Shown here in pieces: positions 20,001-64,000 of a stretch of DNA of 64,000 bases. The translations under genes were made by a program, and so were the position numbers. Numbering within the stretch: position 1 is the stretch's first letter; each line of letters begins with the position of its first letter. The notes under the pieces are model-generated. The model saw only the letters and a list, made by a program, of their open reading frames with translations. It had not been told where the DNA came from and searched no databases. Source of the stretch: Ricordea florida. Lineage: Eukaryota > Cnidaria > Anthozoa > Corallimorpharia > Ricordeidae. The stretch lies in NCBI GenBank assembly GCA_949710005.1, contig OX453287.1, forward strand, positions 8,180,386 to 8,244,385, given 5' to 3'.

Positions 20001-20047
20001 GAATTGAGCAACGATGATTACTATGGCAACAAGTGCGGGAATCGAAG

Positions 20048-24217: not shown

Positions 24218-24305
24218 ATGCTTCCCTTTTTTGATAGAGTGCGATTAACGCTTCTAAGCATCTTTGTTGCGTTTATTCCAGGTGTCATATTTGCACAAAC
24301 GACAG
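24218..24305 (+). CDS. GPCR exon 1: start codon and signal peptide
   Basis: ATG follows directly after the acceptor-like tttttttgttgcag, so an untranslated exon probably lies upstream. It encodes MLPFFDRVRL then a hydrophobic core LLSIFVAFIPGVIFA and QTT, a good cleavable signal peptide. Donor ACAG|gtaaca leaves one base (phase 1), the phase shared by the ectodomain exons that follow up to 37009. Confidence 0.75.
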
Positions 24306-30300: not shown

Positions 30301-33300
30301 CGCGATATATACTCGAATACCAGATACCAGGCTCGTTATTAAAACAATGTATATCTAAATCTCCTGCTTAAGAGAAATTGGACGAGTTCGTGATTGAAAC
30401 GTTAGTGATGTATTTAATGAACTATTTTGAATGAGCAGTTACTAACTAATAATTTTTGGTGCGGCATAAAAGAGATTGAAAGGTTAATTAAGAGCAGCGA
30501 AAATTCAGTTTAGACAACTGTTTTGTTAAGCTCGGTCTAAACTTCGTTGAAATAACCCGCGCACATCAAAGACCGAGAAAAAAGCTGACACTACGACGCG
30601 CGGCAGAATAGTATTGATGAAGTGCGAGGTGTTTGAAATGTGATGTGTGAAGTGTTTGATAAAGCTATAGCTTCTCAACCATACGGCGTATAAATGTTTT
30701 AAAATATTTTCAAATTCATCTATGATGCATAAGAAAAAGAGAGGGGAAATCAGGTAGTGTAACTTGCTTGGATAACCGACGAAACATGTCTTGTTTAACC
30801 TTGTTCATTTTTTTCTTCTAAATACTTCGTTTTAGAAGCTTTATCAAACACTCGATACATGTATATCAGCACCTATCAAACAACACCACTTTAGTCAAAA
30901 ATACTCCGCTGGTTGTTGTATTTTCAACTCTCTTCTTGGTGCTTTTATGTGATGAAACACTGTATCTAGTGTTTGACATGTGATGAAACACTGTATCTCG
31001 TGTTTAATATGTGATGAAACACTGTATCTCGTGTTTGATATGGTACTTAAAAACTCGATCCTCTCGTAACAAGACACGTTGCGCCTTTAGGAGCCCCTAC
31101 CTTTATGCTCAAACCACAGATGCTACCATCAGCATTTGCCTGGATCGCAACCTCAGTGTACAAGAGCCCTATGAGGTAAGGCTTAGTAGCCCAAAGTTTT
31201 ATTCATTTTTGTCTTTTGATAGTGAAATGCATGGATGAAGAAGGAAGTGTCTATATTATCAACAATGAAGAAGGTGGATGGAAAGTGTCTCCATGTCTCA
31301 CATGCTATTGTAGAGAAGGTTTGATGTCTTGCCAATGGGATGTTACAGTCCGTTTTCCAGGATTTTACTGGGGCACAACTAAATTGAAAGACGTCTGTTC
31401 TCAGCCAAAGTGCAATGTCTTCCAATTTATTAAAGACAAGAGAAGCATTTGCAAAGGTAAAGAGACTAGGTCATTTACAGCCTAAATGAATGATTTTGAC
31501 CAGTGTTCATGATAATTCAACTTTATTTCAGCAAAATACTATTATGACACGGATTAAGTCGTATACGTAGTAGGAGGGTCTCAATGGGGTTAACCGTTAG
31601 CAGTTAAATGGGTAAAAAAAAGTAGCCGTTAGGCGTAAATATTGAAAAATTTTACCCGTTAGCCGTAGAAAATATTAACCGTTAGTCATAAAACAGCCAA
31701 AAATATTAACCGTTAGCCGTAAAACAGTCAAAAATATTAACCGTTAGCCGTCAGTAAAAGTCATCATCCCATTGAGACCTTCTAGTAGAGGAGTGTATCA
31801 TAAAACAAGCATGATATTTGTTTTTGTGATATCCAGAATTATTATCCGACTATGCTGTGATATCCAGAATAATGAAGGTCTTGATATGTTGGTGTTCTTT
31901 ACTTATGCTATGATATCCAAAATAATGAAGGTCTTGATACGTGAGAGTTATCCACCCAGGTATCTGACTTTCACAGATAATTGCTACCTCGCCCCTGGTG
32001 ATTCTAGAATTTTACAAAAATTTCATCCAGCATCATCCTAGAACTAACATAGAGCGCGTGTAAGGCAAACTCGCTTAGCGATGGTGCTGGTAAAAATTCT
32101 TCGATCGGGTACAAATTTCGCACGTTCTTTTAATTCTTATAACTAGTTTATATCTAATGCAACATCTTTTGCCAAAAAGAAAACTTATGATTTTGTGGAA
32201 AAAAGTGATCGACCTCATCAGGAATAATTAATAATTAATAAATAATAATAATTAATTAGCAATTATTATTAATCAGCAATTATTCTGCTTTGCTTCGAAA
32301 GCTGCCGAGCTGATAAAGGATGGTGGGCTTCTTATGGAGGGTCAAACTTGGAACTACGAAGGATGCGACTTTTATTTTAACGGATCTGAGCGTGTTCAAG
32401 ACAAAGGAGTGGTATGTCCTACTTCAGCAAGGCCCGCTTGTTATGTCTACAGAGGAGCAATTTGTTGTGCAACTGAGTGTCAAGGTATGCTATGGGGATG
32501 GTGATGATGATGATATGGATAATGATAATAATAACAATAACTGATAATAATTTTTCAAAATACTCCTAAGCCTTATTCACATTCCAAGAATCCTATATAC
32601 ACACGTTCTAAAGGAAAAGCAACTTATCTAAAAACCTATTAAAAATGTTTTTTTTTTTTCAGTTGTACGACCGTAAAGTATTGAACCTTTAAAATCTTAA
32701 AAACTAATAATGATAATAGGCAATGACGATAATGATTGGTAACACTGATTGATTTGGTTGGATGATAACGGTGGTATAAGAGAAAAAGGCGATGATATAA
32801 CAAGGTTACCATGACAACATCATGAGGCTAACTTCGAAACTGTTTTGATTAAAAAAAAAACAATGGTGGAGAGATTTCCGGAAATTTCGAAGGAAGAAAC
32901 TGAACAGCTTGCCGAGAAGGCAATAAATTAAAACACAAAGAAAACTACTGAGACTTAACTAAATGTTTAGTTGACGAACACAAGCCAAAAACGAGGACAG
33001 TTCAAAACTCGAGGCCAAAGAATTAAGGGACGGACCATTAGAAAAGTGATGGCGGGGGGGGGGGGGGGGTGGGGGAAACAAAAAAAAATTCATGCAAGGG
33101 AAAATGCCAAGAAAAAAAATTTATGCAAAGAAGAAGGTAAAAAAAAATTCATGCAGAAGGAAGGTCCAATTGTGACTTTTTCACACGTAGTAAAAAAAAT
33201 TCGTGCAGAGGGGTTCACCTGAAAAACAAAATTCCTGCACAAGCAGTGAGCGAAAAAAAAAATTCGTGCAAACTGAAAATTGCCCACCCACCCCCCCCCC

Positions 33301-36300
33301 CATCACTTTTCTAATGGTCCGTCCCTAAAAAACAATATATTGCACAAATAAATCCTACAATCCTTTCCCACTACAAGGACTGAAAAGGACTTTCAGTGAA
33401 TATTTTCCCGTTGATTTGATGCGTACAGCGAAAATAAATGTGGATCACTTTTCATGCAAACTAGAGAGAATATACAAAAAAGTGGCCAGCCATGTTTGTT
33501 CATTCCAGCGAGCAAAAGAGCTTCATCCAACAACAAATTTGAAATGATTTAGGGGAACTAGAAAAAAGATAAAAAAAAATTAATTCTCTAGGTTACCTAA
33601 TAACGGAGCAAGAATTACGCACAGCCCTCGTGAATAAAAACATACAAAATCGCCGTTTTCCGACAAACTAAGAAATGAAATGATCTTAGCCAGCCTTGAA
33701 CCACGCATACCTATTAATCTCAAACTTTTTAATCATGTTCTTAACTCTGGTAACAGGGTCTGAAAGGAGGGAGGGGGGAGGGGGGGTCCTAATCCCGTAT
33801 TCCCGCTTCTTTTTCACGGGAATCCCGCATCCCGCACTCCTAATTAACTTTATTGACTTTATTAATCAGACAAGCTCTTTGGTTTGGTTTGATTCGTGTT
33901 AACTGGATGATTTGCTTTCACTGCTGGTACTCTTCTTTGGGTCGTAAAGCTTTCCCTCACCTAATTCCCGATAGACAGGCAAAAAATCCCGTATTTTGTG
34001 CAAACATTTTGAATGACAATCCCGCTTCCCGAAGAGCAGTGAATTCCCGAATCCCATCAATAAATTTTGCGTTTTACCGAATCGCATATCATATCTTGAT
34101 CAAATCCCAGATCCCCGGGAATACAATTCCAGACTCTGTGGTAAAATGCCAGACGTTTGGTGTAAAGGCGTTATAATGCCAATTCACAAATCAGAAGATA
34201 ACAATAAACGTACAAACTACAGAGGATTCTGTGTTTCTAGTTGTTTGGGAAAATTGTCTTGCTTCATTTTAATGGCAACCTTTAGATAAGCTGAAAATGT
34301 AATTGTTGAGAAATTACCTCAACACGTTTTCAATTCCCTATTAACATTGCTCACTCTTAGATTCTTCTGAGTTGCTATCTTTATTTTACAGCATTAAAGA
34401 ATTTATCACAAGTATTAAGATTTTCAACTAGAGTCTGTCCCAATGAACGTATGATAGTGTCACCTGACGTACCATGCGAAGACCCAAAGCCCATGTGCTT
34501 GAACGATTCAGTTACTGCACCGCACACAAGACCCCATATCAGGTCATACATGCCGTTTTCTACAGAAAAGCCGTATGGCCAGACCACAGGTGAACCACAT
34601 AATGAAACAGCCTCTACAGCTGCAAATGGGAGGAACCACAGGCAGACGTGTAACTCAGGTATTTGATTTCTTCAAGAGAAAATGAGGTAAGAGAACGTAT
34701 CTTTCATACTGGGTTCTCTTACTATGATAAGGGGACAGAATCAAGAGAAAATGAGGTAAGAGAACGTATCTTTCATACTGGGTTCTCCTACTATGATAAG
34801 GGGACAGAATCAAGCGAAAATGAGGTAAGAGAACGTATCTTCCATACTGGGTTCTCCTACTATGATAAGGGGACAGAATCAAGAGAAAATGAGGTAAGAG
34901 AACGTATCTTCCATACTGGGTTCTCTTACTATGATAAGGGGATAGAATCAAGAGAAAATGAGGTAAGAGAACGTATCTTCCATACTGGGTTCTCTTACTA
35001 TGATAAGGGAACAGAATCAAGAGAAACTGAGGTAAGAGAACGTATCTTCCATACTGGGTTCTCCTACTATGATAAGGGAACAGAATCAAGAGAAAATGAG
35101 GTAAGAGAACGTATCTTCCATACTGGGTTCTCTTACTATGATAAGGGGATAGAATCAAGAGAAAATGAGGTAAGAGAACGTATCTTTCATACTGGGTTCT
35201 CTTACTATGATAAGGGGACAGAATCAAGAGAAAATGAGGTAAGAGAACGTATCTTCCATACTGGGTTCTCCTACTATGATAAGGGAACAGAATCAAGAGA
35301 AAATGAGGTAAGAGAACGTATCTTCCATACTGGGTTCTCCTACTATGATAAGGGAACAGAATCAAGAGAAAATGAGGTAAGAGAACGTATCTTCCATACT
35401 GGGTTCTCTTACTATGATAAGGGGATAGAATCAAGAGAAAATGAGGTAAGAGAACGTATCTTCCATACTGGGTTCTCCTACTATGATAAGGGGACAGAAT
35501 CAAGAGAAACTGAGGTAAGAGAACGTATCTTCCATACTGGGTTCTCTTACTATGATAAGGGAACAGAATCAAGAGAAAATGAAGTAAGAGAACGTATCTT
35601 CCATACTGGGTTCTCTTACTATGATAAGGGAACAGAATCAAGCGAAAATGAAGTAAGAGAACGTATCTTCCATACTGGGTTCTCCTACTATGATAAGGGG
35701 ACAGAATCAAGAGAAAATGGGGTAAGAGAACGCATCTTCCATACTGGGTTCTCCTACTATGATAAGGGAACAGAATCAAGAGAAAATGAAGTAAGAGAAG
35801 GTATCTTCCATACTGGGTTCTCCTACTATGATAAGGGGACAGAATCAAGAGAAAATGAGGTAAGAGAACGTATCTTCCATACTGGGTTCTCCTACTATGA
35901 TAAGGGGACAAATGTTTTTTATAGATCCGGAATCTTTTTTAACTGACCAACAGCTAATGTCCTTCTTATCACGTGGTTGTAATTTCAATGCGCCATGTTG
36001 AAACCGCGGAGCCATGGAACGAGATATAAATAGATTCCGCGTTAAAAATAGATTTTGTTCCCTTATCCTATCAGACGGAGTTATGTTCTCTTTCCTCATT
36101 TTCTTTTGATTTCTTATATCTTTATCTCCAATCGAAAGCTCCTCGGTAATCTCTTGACCTTTTACGTCAGATATCTTGTGTCAGGATGAAGAACTCAACA
36201 CATACTTTGACCAAGCCACATGGTCTGTGGGTCACTGCATCCAGTGTTCGTGTAGCAATGGCAGCATTCACTGTTCTAGAAAAGTGTCATTTCTGACTAG

Positions 36301-51300: not shown

Positions 51301-54212
51301 AATCCTTGTCGTTCAAGGTCAACAAAGGCTCGATTTGAAAACCTTGAATAAGCGCGCACCCCCACCCCACCCCTCAAAAATTAAGTGTCCCAGGCAGCAC
51401 CTGAGAATTTACTTGTTAACTTGTAATTGAGTGACAATGATTAGACTATTATATCGTTTCATCGTTCAACAAACACTTTTGAGAGCTCAGATGCGAAACG
51501 TAAACTAATTTTTCAAAAACACTCGACTGCTGAGAAATGGACTTGGAGTGATTTTAAACCGATGATTACAGTCTATTCTAAGTTTATTCAGTGTTTATTA
51601 TGTCAACATCGACACATCGAGTCAACATGTTACTCACTATATGAAACTTGCATTGCATCCGCCAGCGCGGCTCAATCTCAATCTTCGGCGTAATGTTTCG
51701 ATCTATCAGGAGCCCTATAGACCTCTTTCATAATGGCGGCCAAACAAAAAAAATATTTAGTTTTCATGACAAACTAGCCTTACTGGCCTCGCTAGGATGT
51801 GGAAAATTCAATATAGTTTTTGTTCCAAAATGAGGCTTGTAGGTCTAATTAACATACATACAAAAGAACGATAAATCGGCCGCCATTTATGAAAGTGATC
51901 TATTGATGGGTACCTGGTTCCATTGGTAAATATTTCCTTTGGAGTTCAAATACCAAAAGAAAACAGGTTGAAAAATGGACCGGAATGACTTAAAATCAAA
52001 GATGAGATTGTATCACTCTTTATTATCTGACGGAATCGAGGATTTGCCCTTAGTGTCTGCTGTAGGAACAGTGGTTGATGAACTAGGAAGAATCCTACAG
52101 AGAATAAAATCTGTATTGACTTCACTTTTACTTTTTAAATGATTGTTCATTTTAATTTTTGTGTGCTTCTTAACAAGATTGTTAACATCTTGCTCTTTAT
52201 TTGTAGCCGAGAACATCACCTCCTTTGGAAATGGTCCCACCGGTATCATCAGCCAACCATGAGGTAGATAAAAGGAGCCTTTGATGCTATTTTGCTGCAC
52301 ATACTAACACACACTGGATTGGTAGAAAAAAAAAGACATTACAATTGTTATGCAATAGCAGAAAGAATTTACATTATAGGACTGGAGTGCGCTAGTTTTT
52401 TTTTTACAATGATTCTACATTAGCTGTTACTTTAAGGTTACAAAAATAATATCAAGTTTTATTATAGAGACGTGAGTGTTTTACTGGGAATTACTCCTCT
52501 TGTAAAATTATACGAAACTACATCCGGGACCGTAGTGGCGTACTTTCCATGTTTAGTGTATCATGTAAGCCTTTACAAAATATCCCGAGATCTCCTCGGG
52601 GTGGGGGGGGGGGGGGGGGGTAAGCAGAAGATCTCGGGATACTTTGTAAAGGCTTACATGATATACTATCCTTTACATATCCTTACTAGTGAGGATATCG
52701 ATGACGTCATTTCCCGCCTTGCACGATTCAGTTTGTCTACAAAGATGCTAAACGAACGTCTTATTGTGTTTTTGTCTCTAAAATAAAATAGAAAATTACA
52801 CGTTAGCTCGAAGATATGAATTTTATGTTCTTGTGGCAAGAACACGAATATCTCACGAATATCTCAAGAATATCTCACGAGTGAGCATTGTGGCACAAGC
52901 GCACTCGTGAGATATTGTTCTTGCCACTCGAACATAAAATTCATACATTGTCTCTACTGTGCAGTATTTCCTTACAGAACATTGATTGTTCATCTTATTT
53001 TTTGTTAGCTCCTTAAACACGGTTGTAAACATCTTGTATGTTTATTTTCAGCACAAGACAATACCTCCTATGGAATTGGTCCCTCCGGCCTCACAAGCCA
53101 ACAATGAGGTAGATACAAGGAGCCTGTGTTTCTATTTAGTTACACATACTGAGACACTACATGGCGGGCGTACTCGCGGTGCCTTTCGGAGTTCAAAATT
53201 TGGTTCAAGCGTCACTTTTTCCTTTGTTTTTGAATCGGTACCTATTGCCAGGGTACAAATTTTGTTGAGCAACGCCTATCAACCTAGATTTTTTAAAATA
53301 CCTTTTGACGTGCTTTTTCATCACCCCGTCTTTTTTTGTGGGAGTCTCCCCGGGGCTTGTATGTCATGCGGTTACTAAGAAAGGAGGGAATGTGTGAATG
53401 ATTCGCTGAAAGAGGGGTTAGCCGTTCAAAAAAGCTTCTAGTTAGAGTGTAACGAAACTAAACTTACTTGTAGAACCAGTCAAAAGATTATTTATTTATT
53501 TATTTTATTACAATCTATGGATTTAAAAAAAAAACAAAGGATGAACTGTAAAGGAGTCATAGACCCCCAGGTCACCTGAAAATATAAAGAAACACAGTAA
53601 AATAATAGTTTCAGAAAATACAGAATTATAAAAGCTACTTAAAAAATCACTGAAAAATTTCTTAACTCTAGACTTAAAAATATTTACATTATCAGAAACA
53701 CGAATGTCTAACGGCAGTTGATTCCACAAAGGACTAAGTACTGTGTTTTTCCCTTGATTCATGACCGCGCCCCGACTAATCTACGTCATACTGAGTGGTG
53801 CTACCACTGTCACAATAAAATTTTTCTCGATTTGCAACCATTAGCACTGGGTGTACCACTAAATTAAATATAATAAAAAGAAATTTACTTGGTAGCTTGG
53901 AGATATGAAATCTTCCCCTTGTGATATCTCTTGCAATATCTTCTGGATCAGGGTTGGCGCAGTGGTGAGAGCGCTCGCCTTCCACCAATGGGGCCCGGGT
54001 TCGATTCCCGGCATCATATGTGGGCTGAGTTTGTTGGTTCTTTACTCTGCTCCGAGAGGTTTTTCTCTCCAGTACTCCAGTTTTCCCCTCTTCACAAAAA
54101 CCAACATTTGATTTGATTTGATTGATTTAATTTAATTTAATGATTTGATTTGTACTTCACAGTGTCCCCAATTAGTACCTGAGTGCTAGATACAGTTCAA
54201 ACTCAATAAAGT

Positions 54213-54254
<42 letters not shown>

Positions 54255-57200
54255 TATATATGTTTCACCTAATGAATAGGGAAACTGCATCAAAGGCTGG
54301 AAAGTTGGAAAAAAATTGACAGCCCTGGCCATCCTATGAACATCCGTGAGAGCGAAACGCTCTTAAGGGTGAAATAAAAAGATATGACACCGAGTAGTTT
54401 GGTTCAATGCCAGATCGTTGCGGGTTCAGTGGGCACGATTCAGTTCAGTTATTTTGATTCCCCTTTTTCGGTAGTCCTGTATCACTAAATCTATTGTAAT
54501 TAAAGATTATTCTTCAACAGAAACAGGACTCGACAAATAAAAGTATAAAAAAGCTGCTTGAGGAACACGGCTGTAGGTTCATAAACAAGGTACGACATTT
54601 TGTAGGATTCAAGCGAGTGTCCATGTTTCAGAAAACCCAACTCGTGAGTAAAAATCGCACGCATTGTTATCAATTAATCTCTACTTATTTTATAAGTCAC
54701 TATATCTCTTACTTTCTATAAAAGTTCAAAAATGTTCTTTTCTTGTCGTTTAGTCATAATTCGCTTTCTTGTTTGTGCGACGAATGCGTGAGTTTTTGCG
54801 GGAACAACCAAGAAATTCGACTCGTCCCCAGAGTTCCCTGCGGTCATGCGCTAGCTAACAAAGAGTGGGCTCTGGGTACGAGATTGCAAAGAAACCTGCC
54901 CGAAGTTTACATAACCAAAAAGCTCTCTGAGGCTCAGGCCGCAAAAAAGCTCTCTGAGGCCCCCAGGCCTTCTTGAGACACGGGCCCCAGAGCCTGCAAA
55001 CAATAACGGGGATATCAAAGAGTGCAACAGATAATTAACAATTGTCCCACTCAATTGCAATCTCGTCGTACATGAGCTAATAGCCAACGAGGCGCGTAGC
55101 GCCGAGTTGGCATTTCTTCATGTACGACGAGATTGAGTGGAATAATTGTTTTATTACACCACTAAACCCTCGCTTATGAGGCACTGGAAGTAGTTTGTAC
55201 GACAAGAATTGACTTTGTTATTGTTTGTAAACAGAACCATATTATTATCGAGCCGATATGTAAAAACGTTTCAAACACGAGTCCGGCTCGTTTTTAAGCA
55301 TCTCTTTGATGCACTTGTCAAAATTTTCGAGTTTAGCAAATTAGTCTGAGAATTAAAAGTTGAAAAAGCAGGCAGAAATAAAATAAAAACTCAGTTTACG
55401 GGCTCCACAGATCTTTCAAAATGGCGGCTGATTGAAAGAGTTTTAAACAATTTCCCCACATAATTTGCTCACTTACCGTCGAATAATTTCATGCCATATT
55501 TATTTGCTTCGGTAGTATTTTTTGGTATATTCGTTTCAAGCAAGACTTGAATTTTTCCCCGTCTAATTCAAGAAATAATTCCTCCATGATGGCCGTTTTC
55601 CGTACTAATGGGATATGAGCTGATGGCCTGTGAGTAGGGAACCAATCAGAGCGCGCGTTTGCTCATATCTTGAGGTTGCAGATATAATAACGTGCTTTAT
55701 TTGCAAAAGAACATCCATTTTAGTTGATGATAATACGAAAGAAATTGATCACAACTAAATGCGTCATCTGCTGAGGCTGTTAAAAATACATAAATTAACA
55801 AAATTAGGTCAAACAGACAGTGTTTCAAGAATCACATGTGGCAATATCAAAAGAACTACTGCTCGATCTGCGACACCAAGCCTTAGGTTTTGTGCCCGTG
55901 TTTATGTAGTTACGCGTCTAGTTGTATTCATGAGACACAAAGACTTCGAGTTCATTTGTAATACATGGCACATATTTGAAATGACGCCTTTTAATTTCTT
56001 TTCTAATCTTTAGGGGAACGGAATTACATCAGTATCAAGGGTTTCCAGTAGTTCACAGAGTACTGCAATACAGGATACTCTGGAGTTGGTCCTACTCTGC
56101 ATCTCAATAGCTGCTGTGATAGTTTCTCTTGTACTGTTGAGCGTCTTGAGGTAAAAACATTCAAACGGCAACTAAGCTCCACCTCGGAATTTAAGAAAGT
56201 GCTCGTAACTGGAGCTGGTTTCTCGCAAGAGCTTTAATCTAATAAGCATAAGGCTTGCGCAATATAAAAACATGTAGTTATTACAAGAGATTTGTTCTCT
56301 TGGTTATTATTAGTCTATTAATTAACTGTAAAGTTACAAAGTCACTTTAGTTTTGCCTGCCAAAGAAGAGATTTGCAAATGTGCTGCTAACTCACACACA
56401 GAGATTATAAACTTGTTGAAAGTCTTGAGTTATAAGAAACAGACTCCGAGTATTTCAGTGGCTGCTAACGAGAACTTAAAAACCGGAAAAGACCAGTCGG
56501 TAATTTTTAAAAGTGTATTGATGGTTCATTGTTATCGAAAAGAGATATAAGTATAAATACTCAGGTGATTATACAAAATCGCGCGCTCTGATTGGTTCGC
56601 TATCTCGGATTATCAGCCGATAATCAAGTCGACGAACAAAATGGCTGTCAGTCGTTCGCGCGCTTTTGATGAAATAAAGTTTTTCCTATTGTACAATGCC
56701 TTTCCTTTTCTTTTTTTTAATTAATCACCTGTGTATTTATACTAAAACAATTATTCGCCTAAGGCTCAGTGATTATCGGTGAATAATTGTTAATTAAAAA
56801 AGGTCTTAAGAGGATAATTTTCTGAAGCTTCATCATCTTTTTACTTGACAATTTATTGATATTGTATGGAGAGTTTGTTCATTGATCATCACTGGGAGTA
56901 AAGGAGAAACACCAAACCATCACTTGTCAACATAAAATGATACATTTTGTGGTATTTTATCTTTTATTTAATAACCCTGGAATTAAGCGCAGTGTAGTTT
57001 TCGCTTGTATAATTCAAATGTTGATTTATTCTGAATTGTTCTATCTGGGTTAATGGTATTTTTCGCTTTTTTGTAAAATAGACTAAAACGCTCCGAAAGG
57101 CTGTTTGTGCATAAGAATCTTTTGCTGTCCTTGGGACTTGGAAATCTTGTGTACGTCCTCGACTTAAAGTTGTTCACCACGATGGAAAAATACCCGGTAT

Positions 57201-60200: not shown

Positions 60201-63200
60201 CAAAAGTTGCCGAGCACAATCGGAAAAGGCCTAATCACTGGTTGTCCTGTTAGAACTTGCATATAACATAGAGGAACTTTCCTCTCCTGAAAAAAAAACC
60301 GGCAGAGATGACACAAGTCAATTTATGAAATAAAGCACTGTGTCAAACTTGACAAGACCAGCAACAGTACCGCGGCCCGTACCTCACCAGCCACATGTAC
60401 GCACTGCGTACCTATTTTTGTTTTTTAACACAGGCCCTCTGTTCCACAGTGGCTGTGGTTCAACACTTCCTCCACACATCGTTGTTCACTTGGATGTTGG
60501 TTGAAGGGATCAACCTGTACATCATGTTGGTCAAAGTGTTTTCAGTCAACAGACAGTATATAACCTATCTGCTTACAGGATGGGGTGAGACTACAAAATT
60601 CAAATGCGTTGAAATCTTATGCACGTATTAGTTTCTGTAAACGTTGCTTGAGATCAAATTGTTTTCAATAACCGAATTAGTTTGAGAGGCTCACATCGTA
60701 ATTCATTATAAAGAATCGAGTGGTATACCAAGTGGTAGCAAGTTGATAAAATCCATATCACACATGTGCGGATATAAATTATATCTACACATTTGTGACA
60801 TAACTGTCCGTGCAGCGTTTTTATCGATTTGCTGTCACTCAGTATTCGGTATACGATAGCAATAAAAGTTTTTTTCATGGTCACTTGGAAATATGAATAT
60901 TCAGTCCTTCTCACGTTGAAAATTATTTCACTCGTTTGCTGCCCTCACTCATAACATAGTTTTCAACACTCAAAGAGAGATTTTTTATCTCCGAGCGGCC
61001 ACTGATGTAATATCATCTACGTTTATTTTCAAACAGGAATCCCAGCCATTATTGTGGGTTTAGTTGCTGCCATCAAACCCTCTACCTATGATATGTCAAA
61101 AACTATTTACGATGAGATCACATGTGGACCAGCGACAATTACCGGAAAGGTCAAGCGAACCAGGTTTGGTTATCATGTATACATCGCATCGTATTGACCA
61201 AGCGCGAGGGCCGATATTCTCGCTGTGCGGTCCCAAGCAAGCTTAGTCAATAAAAGACTTATTACATGCCAGTCCACGATTGGAAACTACGTTTCAATTT
61301 TGTGTAGTCACACGAATACTAGCCTGTTTGCATGTTTGTATTTTCACCGGCTTTTTGTCTAGCATTCTGTTCAGGAGCTGTTTGGCATCATTGAAAATCG
61401 GCAAAAAAGTCCATACTTGACTGACGAAAATATGACTTTGAATTCCGTGAAATCGGTCCGATACTGGACAAATATTGGCCCTCGTATGGACTAGAATTGA
61501 AGGATTCTGATTCAGCCATGTTTAAGCATCCATAGACTCTGGTATCACGAACTTGGTACACATTTCCGATTGACCACGCGTGAGGCAGCATTAGTTTGCC
61601 ATGATGTCGTCTCAAACACTAGCTCGTGTTTTAATCGTGTTTGTACCGAAATGAAAAATTAAGTTCGATATTGAGGCGTAATCACGGCTTGATAATGTCG
61701 GCGTTGGAGGGAAATAAATTTTCTCATAACTGACAGCCCTTATAAAGCCGTGATGTCGTCTCAAAATGGAATTAAGCTTATAGAAACCTTGAAATTGAGA
61801 TAATCAAACGAATTAAGTTATACCACCGTATGGTAAAAGAGAGGTGCTGACGTTTCGAGCGTTAGCCCTTCGCCGGAGCGAATGTCGAAACGTCAGCACC
61901 TCCCTTTTACCTTACAGTAGTACAAATTAATTTACCAACTTGTTAGATTATCCCAATTTCTTGTGTTTCAATTCCCCACCGACGCAGCACCAGTTTCTTT
62001 AGAACTATGCTCAAAATACTTACTTCTTTAGAAACTATCCTCAAAATACTTACTCATATTATTGTATTATAAACTCACAATTTCCTCGCATCTGGAAAAC
62101 TGCGCGCATCTCACCCATTCCAAAGGTAGATCACCCCAAATCTGAATCGGACTTTCGCCCAGTCTCGATCTTGCCCGCCCTTTCGAAAGTTTTCAAACGT
62201 CTGGTACTTAAACAATTAGTTCAATACATCAATCATCAGTCACTATTACGACAAAGCATTTCTGGCTTAAGGAGAGGACACTCTACAACTACTGTTCTAC
62301 TTGGCAATAGGGACGATCTTATAAGGGCAATGAAGAGAGGCGAATCGAAGTAACATTGATGGTCACTGCAGACTATTCCAAAGCCTTCTATACTGTGAGA
62401 TTCAAATCAGTCTTGGAAAAGATGCATGCGATGGGTTTTTCAAAGAACTTTCTTCACTGGATGCTAAATTACCTCTCCGACAGGCAGCAGTTTGTCCAAA
62501 TTGATGCTAGAATGTCTGACTACCAACAGTAGAGTTCGGGGTGCCTCAGGGATCAATTTTAGGACCATTTATATTCAAACTACATGTTGCAGATCTCCAG
62601 CAGCATGTCGACTGTACTTGCTTTCAGTACGCAGACGATACGACTTTTTATGTCCACTCCAAGGTTACTGACTTGGACGAATGTGCAATCAATCTAAATA
62701 CTGCTATATCAAGTCTTGAAACATACTCTATTAACTCTAATTTAGCACTAAAGTCGTCGAAGACGAAATGGATGCTTGTTTCAACGAGACAAATGGTTCG
62801 GACGCATGGTCTCGACTCCCACACACTGGACGTGAACTGCCAAGGAACAACGCTGGGGCGTGTACTAACCACCAGGCTGCTCGGATTACAACTGGACCAA
62901 CATCTGACTTGGGAAGATCACATCACAAAGCTGCTCTCATCATGTTATGGCACTCTAGCAGTACTTCGAAAGTTAAAGAACTTGGCACCTTTCCATGTGC
63001 GCAGGCAACTTGCGGAGAGTCTTGTTCTATCTAAGTTGGACTATGCGTCTGCTGTCTTCGACCCTCTGCCAGCGTACCAGATGCGGCGCCTCCAGCGCGT
63101 TCAAAATGCTTGCGCTGGATTCGTGTTAGACACCTACGCTAGAGAAGCTGACTTGAAAAAGTTAAATTGGTTATCCATTGAAAAAAGAAGGGAGTTTTCA

Positions 63201-63620: not shown

Positions 63621-63667
<47 letters not shown>

Positions 63668-64000
63668 CTTATAGAAACTTCGGTATGTCACTGGCATTAC
63701 GAAGCAATGGCCGAAATCATGGAAAGGATATAAAATTGTTTAGATATCCATTCCAGACGTTCCAATTAATGTATGCGCGTCTTTCTATCGCTGTTCCTTT
63801 CACAGTTCTTAAATTCCTCTCCGAATCATAGTTATGCATTAACATACATCCTAAATGTTCATTTCTCTCAGTCATAACGCATTTGACTGCTCTTCTTATT
63901 TTTTGATTAGGTGTTGGCTGAACGGGAGTCTGTGGATTTTTAAGGGCCCTGTATTGGCGGCTATTCTGGTATGGACACTGCTGTTTTCAGTTCCTCGTCT
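24218..64000 (+). CDS. Giant adhesion-type (family B2-like) GPCR gene, 21 exons seen, 3' end beyond window
   Basis: A cell-surface seven-helix receptor; ligand and G protein unknown. Twenty-one exons of fully compatible phase encode about 960 residues: signal peptide (24218), VWC-like Cys-rich exon, second Cys-rich exon and degenerate LDLa (31223, 32302, 34392), the same trio again (36171, 36750, 37009), HRM-like exon (38456), GAIN-like helical exons (40165-51164), Ser/Pro linker (52207, 53052, 54521), TM1 (56014), TM2 (57082), TM3-TM4 start with FTWMLVEGINLYIM (60434), TM4/ECL2 (61037) and ECL2/TM5 CWLNGSLWIFKGPV (63911). TM5 end to TM7 lie past the window. I see no canonical GPS (HLT-FA) motif before TM1. 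Introns hold a Harbinger and a BEL/Pao element. Confidence 0.87.
25109..26681 (+). CDS. Harbinger transposase (HARBI1-like DDE nuclease), exons 25109-25778 and 26266-26681
   Basis: Exon 1 ends GGTCCTGTTG|gtaagc and exon 2 begins after tttattaacag, in phase. Domain order follows HARBI1-like nucleases. An N-terminal helical region ends in a FGRSVPEIS helix-turn-helix-like segment. The catalytic Asp is in GFVDGTLRP (about residue 178), the second Asp in YGDPAYPL and the Glu in SSVEWVF. The frame is open and all three acidic residues are present, so it may be active. It ends in IQEYFQF-stop. Confidence 0.88.
27519..28232 (-). CDS. Harbinger Myb/SANT (trihelix-like) DNA-binding protein
   Basis: About 237 residues from MTSKRELFIWKKHHESLL; an in-frame upstream Met at 28295 is possible. 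The N-terminal SANT/trihelix-like segment includes GAVWSKIAESLAQHG and QRSVREKFEKLYSEFK. A charged coiled coil, a nuclear-localisation-like KRRK and a Gln-rich C-terminus follow. This is the second protein of PIF/Harbinger elements, which helps the nuclease bind its ends and enter the nucleus. Tail-to-tail with the transposase. Confidence 0.85.
   Translation of the reverse strand: MTSKRELFIWKKHHESLLLSEILLEEPFKFNNGSKEKGAVWSKIAESLAQHGMKVTQRSVREKFEKLYSEFKEREREEKQASGVDVEYDENYRALTEIHERISEYEEERQVKETKEKATAAEMRKRATERLSLTKKRNKADTAGSDESEEEVSPKRRKSQTSMVDMIKESVAMKQKYQDDQSQIRSRELELRAAELQQQQQFQSMLIQQQQQFQQQQQQMTMAMFTTLNELFKKIKN
29014..31222. other. GPCR intron 1, part after the Harbinger element
   Basis: Nothing supported apart from the 32-bp repeat at 30950. 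A splice-flanked open stretch at 31096-31174 is discussed among the rejected items. Confidence 0.6.
30950..31045 (+). repeat. Three copies of a ~32-bp repeat
   Basis: TGTGATGAAACACTGTATCT recurs three times with (A/G)TGTTTGA between. It ends about 180 bp before the GPCR exon at 31223. Confidence 0.8.
31223..31456 (+). CDS. GPCR exon 2: VWC-like Cys-rich module (copy A)
   Basis: Acceptor cttttgatag, donor AAAG|gtaaag, 234 nt, phase 1-1. It begins VKCMDEEGSVY; GWKVSPCLTCYCREG carries the W...C..C.C pattern of von Willebrand C-like domains and VCSQPKCNVF closes it. Clearly related to the exon at 36171. Confidence 0.82.
31577..31777. mobile_element. MITE with GAGGGTCTCAATGGG ends and TTAACCGTTAGCCGT repeats
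   Basis: GAGGGTCTCAATGGGG and, inverted, GAAGGTCTCAATGGGAT. TAGTAG occurs before and after. The inside repeats AATATTAACCGTTAGCCGTA. In the GPCR intron after exon 31223. Confidence 0.75.
32302..32484 (+). CDS. GPCR exon 3: second Cys-rich exon (copy A)
   Basis: Acceptor tgcttcgaaag (AAG, forced by phase), donor CAAG|gtatgc, phase 1-1. Encodes TWNYEGCDFYFNGS and ARPACYVYRGAICC. It shares the W-x(3)-G-x-DFY and CYV patterns with the exon at 36750. Confidence 0.75.
33027..33325. mobile_element. G-run MITE family 2, copy 2
   Basis: Ends GGGACGGACCATTAGAAAAG at both sides; TAA directly before and after. The open frames on both strands here come from A-rich repeats. In the GPCR intron after exon 32302. 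Confidence 0.85.
34157..34275 (+). pseudogene. Short LINE reverse-transcriptase fragment
   Basis: The frame reads WCKGVIMPIHKSEDNNK then NYRGFCVSSCLGKLSCF, the RT start region (W-x-G...P-x-H-K-x-x-D...NYRG). Nothing recognisable follows. About 40 codons, a dead fragment just before the GPCR exon at 34392. Confidence 0.75.
34392..34658 (+). CDS. GPCR exon 4: degenerate LDLa-like exon with Thr/Pro-rich tail (copy A)
   Basis: Acceptor ctttattttacag, donor CTCAG|gtattt, phase 1-1. ALKNLSQVLRFSTRVC resembles the start of the exon at 37009, but the LDLa calcium motif is lost (CLNDSVTAP). A hydrophilic stretch rich in Thr, His, Pro and Asn follows. The donor is ten bases before an 18-copy minisatellite full of GAG|gtaaga sites. 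Confidence 0.75.
34668..35911 (+). repeat. Minisatellite: 18 copies of a 69-bp unit
   Basis: The unit contains AATGAGGTAAGAGAACG and CCTACTATGATAAGGGG. Copies differ at only a few positions (AGA/AGC, A/T, GGA/GAA). Since 69 is a multiple of 3 and the unit has no stop in one frame of each strand, it gives long open frames both ways (427 and 418 codons). I do not think these are genes: the exon before it has its own donor, and read-through meets TGA before the array. Confidence 0.95.
36171..36386 (+). CDS. GPCR exon 5: VWC-like Cys-rich module (copy B)
   Basis: Acceptor ccttttacgtcag, donor AAAG|gtgagc, phase 1-1. CQDEELNTYFDQATW then GHCIQCSCSNGSIHCS and CYQPQCNV follow the same order as copy A. 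A second CAG just inside would create an immediate stop, which fixes the acceptor. Confidence 0.83.
36400..36577. mobile_element. MITE family 3, copy 2
   Basis: Ends TATAGAGCGTATGCAC and, inverted, TATAGAGCCTATTCGC; body with GCCATGTTGGTGTCCCC. It starts 13 bp after the donor of the GPCR exon ending at 36386. Confidence 0.8.
36750..36896 (+). CDS. GPCR exon 6: second Cys-rich exon (copy B)
   Basis: Acceptor ttttacctcttag, donor GCCAG|gtaaga, phase 1-1. Encodes CRWNGTLFFDGNRW, ENGVDFYCSTAW and PGCYVEWNKVSC. Paralogous to the exon at 32302. Confidence 0.83.
37009..37146 (+). CDS. GPCR exon 7: LDL-receptor class A-like repeat (copy B)
   Basis: Acceptor ctggaattgcag, donor TCACT|gtaagt. It encodes GLRNLSLISKNELFLC, then CDSRPDCDDFSDERNC, the calcium-binding C-terminal half of an LDLa repeat. 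Only four of the usual six cysteines are present, so one disulfide is missing. Confidence 0.87.
37189..37945 (+). repeat. TCACACC/ACGCC minisatellite with higher-order units
   Basis: A roughly 12-bp motif (TGTCACACCTGG, CGTGTCACGCCC) is organised in larger units of about 200 bp that repeat from about 37206, 37429 and 37618 (each with CACACCTTCTATCAC). It directly follows the LDLa exon's donor. The Thr/Pro/Val-rich frame 37189-37641 is repeat translation. Confidence 0.9.
38456..38557 (+). CDS. GPCR exon 8: hormone-receptor-motif (HRM)-like
   Basis: Acceptor tctacttcttag, donor ACTG|gtaggt. Encodes YYCAAQTAFGIYWPRS and NNCSSYDPSL. The G-x-YWP...NCS pattern is that of the HRM domain found before GAIN domains in adhesion GPCRs. 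Confidence 0.82.
38763..39203 (-). mobile_element. tRNA-derived SINE, minus strand, with internal duplication
   Basis: The minus-strand head AGTAGTGTAGTGGTTAGCG is an A box and GAGTTCGAGCCCTGG a B box. The body carries a roughly 130-bp stretch (GGGAGTATTATTACTCC...GGGATGCTAGTCCA) twice, and the far end is a TACC/GGTA microsatellite at 38763. Confidence 0.75.
39413..39482. repeat. Short inverted repeat (CTCGTTCCCGGGGCTTTTCCC)
   Basis: CTCGTTCCCGGGGCTTTTCC is followed 30 bp later by GGAAAAGCCCTGGGAACGAG. A short MITE-like hairpin next to the SINE at 38763-39203. Confidence 0.75.
39811..40100. mobile_element. G-run MITE family 2, copy 3
   Basis: ACGGACCATTAGAAAAGTGA with a G-run, and inverted CCATCACTTTTCTAATGG before GTCC. 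The body is close to copy 2. It ends 64 bp before the GPCR exon at 40165. Confidence 0.83.
40165..40277 (+). CDS. GPCR exon 9: end of HRM-like region
   Basis: Acceptor tttctccgcag, donor AAAAAG|gtgggt, ends phase 0. GTFTSKCISSEYGKRTYW and CKCELRTLVEHFNKK continue the HRM region into a helix. The intron after it holds the BEL/Pao element. Confidence 0.8.
40331..40539. mobile_element. MITE (GGTAAGTACTTGGTGTAGGC ends)
   Basis: The ends GGTAAGTACTTGGTG are inverted copies; the body has GTACGGCTAGGATGAGTACG. A partial relative is at about 12750-12890. It starts 54 bp after the donor of the GPCR exon at 40165. Confidence 0.75.
40603..41240. mobile_element. TIR element (AAATAGAGACATTTAGCACC)
   Basis: The terminal 20 bases are exact inverted copies. 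The 638 bp between have no gene. The BEL/Pao element inserted 24 bp after its right end. Confidence 0.75.
41265..41422 (+). repeat. Left LTR of BEL/Pao element
   Basis: 158 bp, starts TGTCGGG and ends GACA. It includes TGAATAAATTG, whose AATAAA may serve as the polyadenylation signal. By eye there is no difference from the right LTR. Confidence 0.93.
41527..46824 (+). CDS. BEL/Pao gag-pol polyprotein (1765 aa)
   Basis: A single uninterrupted frame. In order: a charged coiled-coil gag N-terminus (to about residue 160), a capsid-like region, three Cys/His knuckles (CIYC near 387, CFNC near 419, CQVC near 438), aspartic protease with DTGSGSS (Asp near 487), reverse transcriptase (LRIVFDASAKP near 768, active site YVDD 893-896), RNase H (VFGDTSGSG near 1071), an H2C2 zinc-binding and integrase core (Asp in VDFAGP near 1430, Asp in YSDNGRSF near 1493, Glu in GGQFERLIG near 1540), and a C-terminal chromatin/DNA-binding-like domain. 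The order protease-RT-RNaseH-integrase and the FDAS/YVDD wording are those of BEL/Pao. No stop or frameshift. Confidence 0.95.
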   Translation: MATDLDLDAAIKRIDAKLRMLKFTREDVPRIRGKNELKALERLQKAMEGQIDGVHEQMFQIQALRIENGDDPVEVREWSLEIERQLEEFQETADDVREMARNKQEEALRRQRDEEEMREEEKRRRHYEEELKLEEARMKMKREYERKFEEDRNKSIKESGAKLPKLTITQFQGTHLDWLRFWSQFETEIDKASISQVAKFSYLKELLISTVRVFVDGLPYNSEGYERAKFILSSKYGKSSEVANAHMQEIIGLSTITGTRPAPIQEFYEKLTSHVQVLETMGKIKEIHGFARTTLDKLPGIRADLVRLDDNWQEWGFSELIESLRRWCDRNPVPSDNPKQDLPRRDLSNRDLSNRKPSFRSPSSHSLPKKNTVYQTKDEVGRMGRGCIYCNSEDHKATECKKVPNLNQRKKILSDKRLCFNCTGAKHQAQDCRSKTNCQVCGHRHHTSICDKQHSNNQMMLATGEGSVIYPVVVVVVDGIKCRALLDTGSGSSYASAALVARLNKRPFHVEHRQIEMMLCSTVQKVQSYSVKVGSVDGKFEMTTRVSKVDKGLLLTVPNPNYEDLIRKYCHLQGVVMNDDDKKSELPIHVILGASEYSRIKTETKPKIGQPSEPIAELTKLGWTMMSTGEESVLSNVYFTRTSTADYQQLCSLDVLGLEDRAEEDQQDVFDEFSQQLQRSEEGWYQTGLLWKVGHAPLLKNERGSKRRLEGLLKKLQREPGMLDKYDEIIQEQLADGIVERVTDVATSREFYIPHKGVKRESAETTKLRIVFDASAKPGEEKPSLNECLESGPPLQNLLWDVLVRNRFKPVALAGDIKQAFLQVRIRAEDRDALRFHWIKDKDPSAIEVLRFTRALFGLVQSPFLLAATLKLHLESLREKYPEEIEEILRSLYVDDVITGGSTTAEVQELKKTIVSVFGEAKFTMHKWNSNVSQLESEIISVEEQPTFAKQQLGVKEGESKLLGLPWNKSDDSIAVKFPEEPIDVTKRGILRFLAAVYDPLGLASPATLVGKFLYREVCDLRLPWDEKVSDKIGQEWFKFVRSLPSMIEVPRSLPRFKEPTEGVELHVFGDTSGSGISAVAYAVIQQASGLSQGLIAAKSRLAKKNLTIPRLELVAAHMAANLAENVRKALSDQPIKSVYGWSDSKVALHWIKGGGSYKQFVANRVRKINAKDFIEWRHVDTKRNPADVGSRGCKAGHLSSLWLPGPVWLPNREEWPEEIVTNPSKETEAEAKLTKEIFAVAVEPKDDLDELLEKHVFWQMVRVTGWVGRFSQNCRSKKLYRIRGPLTTAETDRAVKWWIRREQGRYSVTEKFQEDQQRLNLQKNDEGIYVCKGRIQGVYPVYLPPRVTLSEKIVQDAHIMTLHGGVGQTMVLVRQKYWIPRLRQLTKNVINHCFGCKKFHVTRFPKPKPADLPVDRTDGSYPFQVIGVDFAGPIAYKASKKKQGKAHLLLFACSLTRAVHLELLTDQTTESFIKCLKRFIARRGRPRKIYSDNGRSFVAASKWLKSIMRDEMTQDYLAHHNMLWQFNLARAPWWGGQFERLIGIVKQAFYKVIGRANLTFSELEEVFLDVEVAVNNRPLTYVEDDVEFPVLTPAVMMYGESYVLPEEDVDLLEDVELRKRARYLRRCKDVLWSRWSAEYVRSLRERHNLKHKSKEPTLEVGDVVLIQNEERNRGKWNIGIVTKLIKGSDGVLRGARLRAGKSYLERAIQQLCPMELSCDVTHTESNQVVQLNPRAREFAPRQAAIAAIERIRGIAEEEKANELS
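46944..47101 (+). repeat. Right LTR of BEL/Pao element
   Basis: 158 bp, same sequence as the left LTR by eye. It is preceded directly by a purine-rich tract at about 46931-46943. Confidence 0.93.
47450..47629 (+). CDS. GPCR exon 10: GAIN-like helical exon
   Basis: The acceptor is ttttaag|ATTTCAG (phase 0 forces AAG; the CAG downstream gives a stop within eight codons). Donor CTG|gtaaga. Amphipathic helices ISELNEGNLMNISNEL and VFYELFSSLFSAATKLL resemble the helical GAIN subdomain A. Confidence 0.8.
48899..49289. mobile_element. CAGGGTTC-ended MITE (CTTGAAA-rich)
   Basis: Begins CAGGGTTCGCACGC and ends GTGTACGAGCC; TAATTT on both sides. Inside are CCCTTGAAAACCCTTG repeats. Same terminal type as 10397-10796 but a different body. 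It ends 46 bp before the GPCR exon at 49336. Confidence 0.68.
49336..49416 (+). CDS. GPCR exon 11 (27 codons)
   Basis: Acceptor ttttgcatcacag, donor CTCAA|gtaagc, phase 0-0. Encodes HVIDTAAERKRRTVVHLG then EWFCPYVAQ. Helical; no family motif by itself. Confidence 0.72.
49440..50240 (+). repeat. Second locus of the ~120-bp repeat (about 3 copies, split by a MITE)
   Basis: Same unit and orientation as 23490-24040. It lies between the GPCR exons at 49336 and 50312. Confidence 0.82.
49634..50099. mobile_element. MITE with ~90-bp inverted ends, nested in a tandem repeat
   Basis: The ends GAAACGCTGTGGCTAAATGA are inverted copies extending through TGACCGGCAGCCGGTC-like and AAAATATCAGACTG sequence. 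It splits one copy of the ~120-bp repeat of 49440-50240. Confidence 0.82.
50312..50421 (+). CDS. GPCR exon 12 (GAIN-like)
   Basis: Acceptor tttttaatcag, donor GAGAG|gttcgt. VNQRQVLIDTAKIFLSGILN is a GAIN-A-like helix; NETDHIF may hold an N-glycosylation site. It leaves two bases for the next exon. Confidence 0.75.
50915..51164 (+). CDS. GPCR exon 13 (GAIN-B-like, 250 nt)
   Basis: Acceptor tatattctctag, donor AAAG|gtgata, phase 2 to 0. PLVVGELKWDFILPEQSEVQ and CNVVISEIEAQDEMIIW look like the beta-rich subdomain, separated by a Ser/Asn/Pro-rich loop. No GPS cleavage motif is present. Confidence 0.75.
52207..52263 (+). CDS. GPCR exon 14a: 19-codon linker mini-exon
   Basis: Acceptor tctttatttgtag, donor CATGAG|gtagat, phase 0-0. 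Encodes PRTSPPLEMVPPVSSANHE. Its length, phase, protein and flanking intron sequence match the exon at 53052, so the two are a tandem duplicate. They may be used together or as alternatives. Confidence 0.7.
52556..52668. repeat. Hairpin around a G-run
   Basis: TATCATGTAAGCCTTTACAA and TATCCCGAGATCT recur inverted on the other side of a run of about 17 G. In the intron between the duplicated GPCR mini-exons. Confidence 0.82.
52813..52948. repeat. Fold-back (ATGAATTTTATGTTC ends)
   Basis: TATGAATTTTATGTTCTTGTGGCAAGAAC and its inverse surround AATATCTCACGA repeats. Also between the GPCR mini-exons. Confidence 0.8.
53052..53108 (+). CDS. GPCR exon 14b: 19-codon linker mini-exon
   Basis: Acceptor tgtttattttcag, donor AATGAG|gtagat, phase 0-0. 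Encodes HKTIPPMELVPPASQANNE, matching the exon at 52207 at most positions. Its acceptor is the better of the two by eye. Confidence 0.72.
53490..53765 (-). pseudogene. LINE 3'-end fragment, minus strand
   Basis: The minus frame has LWNQLPLDIRVSDNVNIFK then SRVKKFFSDF, the usual last motif of LINE ORF2 (WN-LP--IR---N---FK). On the same strand a TAAA/TAAATA tail follows at about 53490-53510. Confidence 0.7.
53948..54253 (+). mobile_element. tRNA-derived SINE with (ATT)n tail
   Basis: The head has a pol III A box (GGCGCAGTGGTGAGAGCG) and B box (GGGTTCGATTCCC). A body with CTCTGCTCCGAGAGG and a pyrimidine-rich stretch follows, then AATAAAGTTC and (ATT)n. The head does not end in an intact acceptor arm, so it is a SINE rather than a tRNA gene. 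Confidence 0.85.
54521..54589 (+). CDS. GPCR exon 15 (juxtamembrane, 23 codons)
   Basis: Acceptor ttattcttcaacag, donor AACAAG|gtacga, phase 0-0. Encodes KQDSTNKSIKKLLEEHGC then RFINK. It sits where the last GPS-bearing strand would be expected but shows no HLT/S-FA motif. Confidence 0.68.
55039..55153. repeat. Fold-back repeat
   Basis: CAATTGTCCCACTCAATTGC with ATCTCGTCGTACATGA, then the inverse TCATGTACGACGAGATTGAG. In the intron before the TM1 exon. Confidence 0.75.
56014..56150 (+). CDS. GPCR exon 16: TM1
   Basis: Acceptor tttctaatctttag, donor TTGAG|gtaaaa. A Ser-rich leader (GNGITSVSRVSSSS) is followed by the hydrophobic segment LELVLLCISIAAVIVSLVLL, taken as TM1. It leaves two bases. 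Confidence 0.83.
57082..57196 (+). CDS. GPCR exon 17: ICL1 and TM2
   Basis: Acceptor tttttgtaaaatag, donor TACCCG|gtatgt. RLKRSERLFVHKNLLLSLGL and GNLVYVLDLK follow the family-B pattern R-x(5)-HKNL-x-LSL-x-x-N. Confidence 0.88.
57361..59292 (+). repeat. GTGAGT/GTAAGT tetranucleotide-type array (~1.9 kb), interrupted at 58411-58673
   Basis: Almost pure mixture of AGTA and AGTG units on the sense strand of the GPCR intron after exon 57082, with occasional variants (ACGT, AGGT). The minus-strand frames of Leu/Thr/His/Ser are translation of the repeat, not genes. A 263-bp MITE splits the array. Confidence 0.95.
58411..58673. mobile_element. MITE (CAGGGACGGCG termini) inside the GTRAGT array
   Basis: Ends CAGGGACGGCGGAGC and, inverted, CAGGGACGGCGAAGC. 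The sequence between is unlike the surrounding array. The hAT-like CAGGG end suggests an 8-bp duplication, but the flanks are repeats and do not prove it. Confidence 0.75.
59465..60240 (-). mobile_element. Degraded hAT transposon remnant
   Basis: The ends are inverted copies of each other (left CACTGATAGGCC, right inverted CAGTGATTAGGCC, then CCGATTGTGCTC in both). Inside is a minus-strand fragment of a hAT transposase C-terminus. I see no clean 8-bp duplication. It lies in the intron between GPCR exons 57082 and 60434. Confidence 0.7.
59803..59985 (-). pseudogene. hAT transposase C-terminal dimerisation-domain fragment
   Basis: The minus frame reads PSSASAERAFSLLTNALG then QQESALQDYLEFSLMLRYN, the conserved hAT family dimerisation motif (SSAS-ER-FS). 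An A-rich run (KKKKK) interrupts the upstream side, and the catalytic domain is absent. Confidence 0.82.
60434..60584 (+). CDS. GPCR exon 18: TM3 to start of TM4
   Basis: Acceptor tttttaacacag, donor TGGG|gtgaga. ALCSTVAVVQHFLHTSLFTW then MLVEGINLYIMLVKVF is the hallmark TM3 of adhesion/secretin-type receptors, with the disulfide Cys and the FTWM-x-x-EG-x-x-LY motif. It ends in YLLTGW. Confidence 0.93.
61037..61163 (+). CDS. GPCR exon 19: TM4 and ECL2
   Basis: Acceptor tattttcaaacag, donor ACCAG|gtttgg. GIPAIIVGLVAAIKPSTYD continues the GW-x-IPA TM4 motif; the rest is an unusually long ECL2. Confidence 0.87.
61818..61916. repeat. Hairpin (GAGGTGCTGACGTTTCGAGC), copy of a family also at 24365-24520
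   Basis: AGGTGCTGACGTTTCGAGC and its inverse. The surrounding ~200 bp (CCAATTTCTTGTGTTTCAATT, CGACGCAGCACCAGTTTCTT) is an inverted relative of 24365-24520 near the GPCR start exon. Confidence 0.75.
62062..63666 (+). mobile_element. 5'-truncated LINE (CR1/L2/jockey-type), reverse transcriptase and 3' tail
   Basis: RT motifs in order but in shifting frames: RISPIPK and SDFRPVSILPALSKVF, then TADYSKAF, then FGVPQGSILGP and FQYADDTTFY, then a C-terminal region RRLQRVQNACAGFVLD. It ends in a 3' UTR and an (ATT)n tail at about 63624-63666. The endonuclease is missing. The last GPCR exon in the window starts 245 bp later. Confidence 0.85.
62090..63284 (+). pseudogene. LINE reverse transcriptase, broken by frameshift and stop
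   Basis: The first frame stops at about 62353, just before the TADYSKAF block. The second stops (TAG) at about 62530, just before FGVPQGS. The third runs 62541-63284 and carries the YADD catalytic motif and the long C-terminal domain. So at least two breaks occur; it is not functional. Confidence 0.85.
63911..63968 (+). CDS. GPCR exon 20: ECL2 and start of TM5
   Basis: Acceptor ttttttgattag. CWLNGSLWIFKGPVLAAIL is the conserved ECL2 CWL followed by TM5. A donor candidate is ATTCTG|gtatgg at 63968. Without it the frame stays open to the window end (VWTLLFSVPRL), so the 3' boundary is unsure. Confidence 0.75.

Follow-up and report, generated by a model that had tools for sequence, protein, structure and literature searches.

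The window analyzed here, a 64,000-nucleotide (64-kb) stretch of the genome of the corallimorpharian Ricordea florida, carries on its plus strand a chain of 23 candidate exons that spans 24218-64000 and is predicted to encode a receptor with a long modular ectodomain (Table 1). As rebuilt, the chain is phase consistent, with 22 of 22 junctions in frame, and the predicted protein runs without a stop for 992 or 993 amino acids until it is cut by the end of the window. An open reading frame runs through all 23 candidate exons; each of the 22 whose 3' ends lie within the window has a GT donor, and no frame break is required. The initial annotation had joined 21 exons without a phase conflict; frame preservation was borne out, whereas the exon number differs. 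The signal peptide that it had placed at the start corresponds to a hydrophobic segment in E1 in the hydropathy profile.

Table 1. Candidate exons of the putative receptor gene in the R. florida window.
Exon	Position	Strand	Content and phase	Basis
E1	24218..24305	+	start Met and signal peptide, phase 0-1	hydropathy; first-ranked acceptor and donor of its ORF
E2	31223..31456	+	VWC-like copy 1, phase 1-1	VWC Cys motif; PSP94 0.026 and VWC 0.043, below cutoff; 36% identical to E5
E3	32302..32484	+	Cys-rich copy 1, phase 1-1	36% identical to E6; no Pfam match
E4	34392..34589	+	degenerate LDLa-like copy 1, phase 1-1	duplicated block; three Cys; no Pfam match
E5	36171..36386	+	VWC-like copy 2, phase 1-1	VWC 2.1e-4, 22.0 bits versus cutoff of 27.6; PSP94 0.0073
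E6	36750..36896	+	Cys-rich copy 2, phase 1-1	paralog of E3; no Pfam match
E7	37009..37146	+	LDLa copy 2, phase 1-1	Pfam LDLa 4.7e-6, above cutoff; PDB LDL receptor 0.0033
E8	38456..38557	+	HRM-like, first half, phase 1-1	E8+E9 Pfam HRM 0.015, below cutoff
E9	40165..40277 (or end 40281)	+	HRM-like, second half	E8+E9 HRM match; donor rank
E10	47450..47629 (or start 47457)	+	GAIN-like stretch, first exon	open, phase compatible; no Pfam match
E11	48756..48833	+	doubtful exon	weak sites; 83/200 shuffles as good
E12	49336..49416	+	GAIN-like stretch, phase 0-0	phase chain; splice sites
E13	50312..50421	+	GAIN-like stretch, phase 0-2	phase chain; splice sites
E14	50690..50749	+	GAIN-like stretch, phase 2-2	phase chain; splice sites
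E15	50915..51164	+	possible GAIN subdomain B remnant without GPS, phase 2-0	motif scan; Pfam; splice sites
E16a	52207..52263	+	19 residues, proline rich, phase 0-0, possible cassette	tandem twin of E16b
E16b	53052..53108	+	twin exon, phase 0-0	43/57 nt identical to E16a
E17	54521..54589	+	stalk exon, phase 0-0	top score among 37 candidate exons in 51165-56013
E18	56014..56150	+	Ser-rich juxtamembrane stretch and TM1	hydropathy; 7tm_2
E19	57082..57196	+	TM2	7tm_2; ADGRL3 alignment
E20	60434..60584	+	TM3 and start of TM4	7tm_2; ADGRL3 alignment
E21	61037..61163	+	TM4 and extracellular loop 2	7tm_2
E22	63911..64000	+	TM5, cut by window end	7tm_2

Splice sites were scored with textbook-style weights. 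Taken regardless of frame, the top-scoring sites within the open frame of each model exon were compatible at 17 of the 22 junctions, compared with the one-third expected by chance (binomial P, 3.1e-5), in a test that was only partly blind because it took its frames and exon cores from the same model. The incompatible junctions were E2-E3, E4-E5, E9-E10, E11-E12, and E16a-E16b. The acceptors of E3 and E5 each rank second of seven, and both model borders were kept because alignment with the paralogous exon supports each of them; for E3, the alignment of E6 begins at almost the same position. At the border between E9 and E10 there are two in-frame solutions, 40277 with 47450 and 40281 with 47457. 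Among seven E9 donors, 40277 ranks first and 40281 third, and the 40277-47450 pair has the stronger combined score and yields the 993-residue protein. Exons E2 to E9 were all phase 1-1 in the first model, and E9 becomes 1-0 with the better-scoring border; phase 1-1 exons are the pattern expected of shuffled modules. Over 24306-40164, phase 1-1 candidate exons number 20 on the plus strand and 7 on the reverse strand, against a mean of 1.4 and a maximum of 10 in 30 shuffles; the 20 comprise the six model exons E2 to E7, three nested alternatives, nine in two transposase ORFs, and two others. E1 is linked to E2 by splice sites and phase alone, across a 6.9-kb intron. E11 is no better than chance and is doubtful as an exon, with weak splice sites and at least one equally good candidate in 83 of 200 shuffles; skipping it keeps the frame.

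The ectodomain is dominated by a duplication: E2-E4 and E5-E7 are one three-exon block in two copies (identity in 53 of 178 alignment columns; E = 2e-22), arranged in each as VWC-like, Cys-rich, and LDLa-like, with phase 1-1 exons in both. The LDLa domain in E7, extended by three initial residues of E8, scores 27.2 bits (4.7e-6) versus a Pfam cutoff of 24.1, and the same domain inside longer queries scores 19.8 and 22.4 bits, under that cutoff. Of the six cysteines of an LDLa domain, E7 lacks the first and third, which pair together in known LDLa domains; the other four are present, as is the acidic tail, CDxxxDCxDxSDE. Its counterpart E4, with three cysteines, no longer has this tail, gave no LDLa match in Pfam, and is recognized only as a paralog of E7. 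A six-cysteine LDLa pattern had no match, and the LDLa tail pattern matched E7 only.

By sequence, E2 and E5 are VWC-like, in that the Cys pattern is present at Pfam VWC scores (E5, 2.1e-4 and 22.0 bits; E2, 0.043 and 14.5 bits) below the 27.6-bit cutoff; VWC is absent from the match lists of longer queries. The VWC core motif occurs three times in the six frames of the 64 kb, on these two exons only (overlapping matches at 31210 and 31228 in E2 and one at 36179 in E5), and did not occur in 30 resampled sequences. Searched against the PDB, an E2/E5 profile found nothing significant, its six weak matches including beta-microseminoprotein and small serum protein 2. Structure models built from single-exon peptides (E2 with E5, E3 with E6) had a pLDDT of 73.9 for E2 and 59.3 for E3, and a Foldseek search with the E2 model returned 216 matches at E values up to 10 and none at up to 0.001; its top rows were small heat-shock proteins, which we judged uninformative. 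The middle Cys-rich exons, E3 and E6, are unclassified as far as their sequences go: searched exon by exon, E3, E4, and E6 matched no Pfam family, and the best of 11 PDB matches to an E3/E6 profile was a phage protein at 0.026. Downstream of the duplicated block, E8 and E9 together match Pfam HRM at 0.015 (16.1 bits versus a cutoff of 26.2), a match that falls to 0.57 in a 385-residue query and is missing from the match list of the full protein. Hence, of the ectodomain order proposed by the initial annotation, the doubling and the LDLa domain of E7 hold, with E4 degenerate and VWC under its cutoff, and the HRM-like stretch lies in the expected place at a score short of the Pfam threshold.

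The membrane part gave far stronger matches. Pfam 7tm_2 covers residues 809-988 (E = 7.9e-31; 107.6 bits; profile positions 7-176 of 250, with TM6-TM7 lying beyond the window) and is the sole match of the full protein above a curated Pfam cutoff. Among the 60 of 90 PDB matches listed, the best chain is ADGRL3 (1.5e-18), followed by ADGRG6, ADGRG5, ADGRL2, and ADGRD1, and the top hormone receptor is VIPR1 (7.8e-13); within the same 60, the first 18 rows consist of 16 adhesion chains and two of VIPR1, and VIPR1 and the PACAP receptor rank above several adhesion chains. TM1-TM5, in which family-B motifs were first noted, are confirmed by these matches, and the sequence securely places the membrane part in class B. 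Within that class, the 7TM region is nearer to adhesion than to secretin receptors, as judged by pairwise sequence ranking rather than by a tree. The earlier label of adhesion type accordingly suits the 7TM region, which finds its closest solved structures among adhesion receptors, but not the full definition, as a GPS was sought and not found. NCBIfam gave two subthreshold, unrelated matches for the 7TM region, and a weak DUF1180 match (0.0079, below cutoff) overlaps the stalk and TM1-TM2 region. Viral contigs scanned with TM3 and with E2 yielded no confirmed relative.

Our preferred reading, which we hold to be reasonably probable, is that the chain is one gene for an orphan class B 7TM receptor that descended from, or stands beside, the HRM-GAIN-7TM adhesion GPCRs. 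On this reading, it seems to be an atypical representative of an established receptor class, not a new type of system.

Adhesion GPCRs are set apart by a GAIN domain with a GPS and a tethered agonist, as described in passages of PMC12716839 and PMC11697300, and the region between the HRM-like stretch and TM1 is where such a domain would lie. Counted from the final cysteine of the HRM, TM1 follows after 284-348 residues in variants with E17 and after 261 residues if E17 is dropped together with E11 and E16a/b; HRM-bearing adhesion receptors of choanoflagellates, filastereans, and metazoans have a spacing of roughly 280-330 (passages of PMC12716839). The predicted length therefore suits a diverged form of the GAIN domain, which consists of a helical subdomain A and a beta subdomain B. 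E10-E15, in two versions, matched neither GAIN nor GPS nor any other Pfam family at E values up to 10, and the nine PDB matches of the HRM-to-TM1 stretch are chance matches with no GAIN chain among them. Because GAIN domains typically share low sequence identity (passages of PMC11697300), the missing match is not decisive alone, and the GAIN-like region of the initial annotation agrees with a GAIN domain in length and position only.

The GPS, which forms the conserved end of a GAIN domain, was sought in several ways. Three strict GPS patterns had no match in any of the six frames (chance expectation, 0.1 to 0.5). A loose GPS-tail pattern had 11 matches in six frames versus 3.5 expected, one of them inside E5 and none between E15 and TM1. 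Within 51165-56013, 37 candidate exons with both splice sites scoring at least 4 were judged by eye and none was GPS-like, in a scan that would miss a GPS interrupted by introns or encoded by an exon with sites scoring under 4. The cleavage site and tethered agonist thus seem to be absent from the predicted protein.

Open phase 0-0 exons rich in proline and serine lie between E15 and TM1 instead. Three candidates at the score of E16a, E16b, and E17 arose in 2 of 200 shuffles (shuffle mean, 0.26), and each of the three can be skipped in frame; other high scorers in the interval, such as 52468-52619, were omitted because their phases do not fit. The E16a/E16b twins belong to a tandem duplication at 52140-53157 with a spacing of ~845 bp (79% identical over 117 nt). 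Since their codon differences are eight nonsynonymous and one synonymous, the twins show no sign of conservation at the protein level. They may be cassettes, possibly alternative stalk exons; that they are not exons at all is less likely.

These results bear directly on whether the receptor is a canonical adhesion GPCR, cleaved by autoproteolysis and activated by a tethered agonist, whose GPS exon was missed through intron splitting, poor splice sites, or assembly loss. The HRM-to-TM1 spacing is right for a complete GAIN domain, subdomain B might begin in E15, and identity among GAIN sequences is low (passages of PMC11697300); yet the strict GPS motif is absent in all six frames, no GPS-like exon occurs among the 37 candidates, and the interval before TM1 is occupied by the proline/serine-rich exons, a set rarely reproduced by shuffling. 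We consider this explanation unlikely. If it were correct, the receptor would add one more unusual ectodomain to a family already known for such ectodomains. A bolder variant of the single-gene reading is that a family of HRM-bearing class B receptors with long ectodomains lost the GPS and tethered agonist, kept the HRM-to-7TM spacer, and is gated via its cysteine modules or its HRM, making it a living form of the proposed step from adhesion to secretin receptors. We regard this as improbable. A GPS-less HRM-bearing receptor would bear on the origin of secretin receptors from adhesion receptors, a descent proposed in work cited in passages of PMC4302439, and a long modular HRM-bearing relative with neither a self-cleaving GAIN domain nor a tethered agonist would suggest that the ectodomain may work by another route.

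The two largest introns of the chain are E1-E2 (6.9 kb) and E9-E10 (7.2 kb). An LTR retrotransposon at 41265-47101, which we take to be of BEL/Pao type, lies in intron 9 and accounts for 5.8 kb of its 7.2 kb; without it, the intron would measure about 1.3 kb. The direct repeats of this element (158 nt; 41265-41422 and 46944-47101) are 100% identical, and a 200-residue piece of its ORF (41509-46824) matches RVT_1 at 8.7e-8; it looks like a recent insertion. The size of these introns, and the phase disagreement between the best single donor and the best single acceptor at E9-E10, would fit two same-strand neighbors with phases agreeing by chance, namely, one gene for a secreted protein with VWC, LDLa, and HRM modules (E1-E9) and another for a class B receptor (E10-E22). 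Against this, most of the E9-E10 intron is the element with identical repeats, there are two in-frame ways to join the exons, and passages of PMC12716839 report the HRM in both secretin and adhesion receptors, a single nucleariid being the only organism for which they name HRM proteins that are not GPCRs. A single gene is the simpler reading of the sequence, and we hold a pair of genes to be improbable. Still less credible is a decaying or misjoined copy (a pseudogene) that kept open exons and lost its GPS exons. The failure to find those exons and the mobile-element ORFs in several introns speak for it; against it, every candidate exon is open, 22 of them have GT donors, and no frame break is needed.

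As a single-gene receptor, the R. florida protein can be placed against known relatives. It resembles the latrophilins (ADGRL) among the HRM-GAIN-7TM adhesion GPCRs in its class B 7TM region, whose best PDB match is ADGRL3, in having an HRM-like stretch followed by a spacer about as long as a GAIN domain, and in its long modular ectodomain. The latrophilin ectodomain modules are lectin and olfactomedin, whereas those of the R. florida receptor are doubled VWC-like and LDLa modules, and no GPS or tethered agonist was found in it. With secretin (class B1) receptors, such as VIPR1, it shares a class B 7TM region (7.8e-13), an HRM-like stretch, and the lack of a detected GPS. Secretin receptors, which have peptide hormones as ligands and the HRM as hormone-binding domain, have a short N terminus in which the HRM adjoins TM1; the R. 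florida receptor differs in having 261-348 residues between the two and an adhesion receptor as its best 7TM match. Among the adhesion receptors of the sponge Amphimedon, a GPS is present in 28 of 40 and absent in as many as 12 (passages of PMC4302439). The GPS-less sponge receptors are similar in carrying 7tm_2 without a GPS, and at least eight sponge adhesion receptors have an HRM; some of those lacking a GPS have short N termini, and their models are possibly incomplete, unlike the long modular ectodomain seen here (passages of PMC4302439). Amphioxus adhesion receptors are similar in containing LDLa, said to be absent from the mammalian ones, but differ in that many have a GPS and that VWC is not named for them in the passages of PMC2246102 concerned. 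Uncharacterized cnidarian and cephalochordate receptors group with filasterean ones (passages of PMC12716839). The first 300,000 of the 412,533 characters of a 2026 review on adhesion GPCRs (PMC13197933) contain none of the terms cnidaria, VWC, and LDLa. The initial annotation knew of no named receptor with this ectodomain order, and none was recognized among the open-license papers listed, as judged mostly from titles, abstract openings, and passages.

Given that no GPS or tethered agonist is visible, we predict that the receptor probably remains a single uncleaved chain from synthesis through function. In such a receptor, the doubled cysteine modules would bind an extracellular partner, which might be the matrix, a membrane protein, or a secreted factor. 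The HRM-like and diverged GAIN-like stretch, together with a flexible stalk, would couple this binding to the 7TM region, which would signal through G proteins, and gating would occur by ligand or by stalk movement, not by shedding of an N-terminal fragment. The length of the proline/serine-rich stalk may vary by splicing, as the twin exons could be skipped in frame.

Several other features were observed in the window. Intron 1 contains, at 25070-28298, two ORFs matching DDE_Tnp_4 (0.0022, below cutoff, and 4.8e-13) and, within the same interval, a Myb/SANT ORF on the minus strand (4.8e-8); together these presumably represent a PIF/Harbinger-like transposon. The intron after E4 holds eighteen 69-bp tandem copies at 34672-35910 (96% matches) with a long ORF on each strand, and the near-perfect splice donor GAGGTAAGA occurs 14 times in this array. 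Long arrays of short-unit repeats, with AGTG and GTAAGTGA units, lie at 57411-59293 in the intron between E19 and E20, and the GC skew over 56001-60000 is 0.39. In the intron between E21 and E22, an ORF at 62520-63281 matches RVT_1 at 2.1e-12 and is presumably a LINE-like fragment. Rfam had no match in the 64-kb window. Upstream of the receptor, a plus-strand GDA1_CD39 nucleotidase match lies at 181-606 (6.4e-21), and the minus strand of 14531-20515 carries Sel1 repeats (18213-18557 at 1.6e-10 and 14534-14836 at 0.0034, below cutoff), a weak TPR_6 match, and a DEAD helicase fragment at 2.4e-6.
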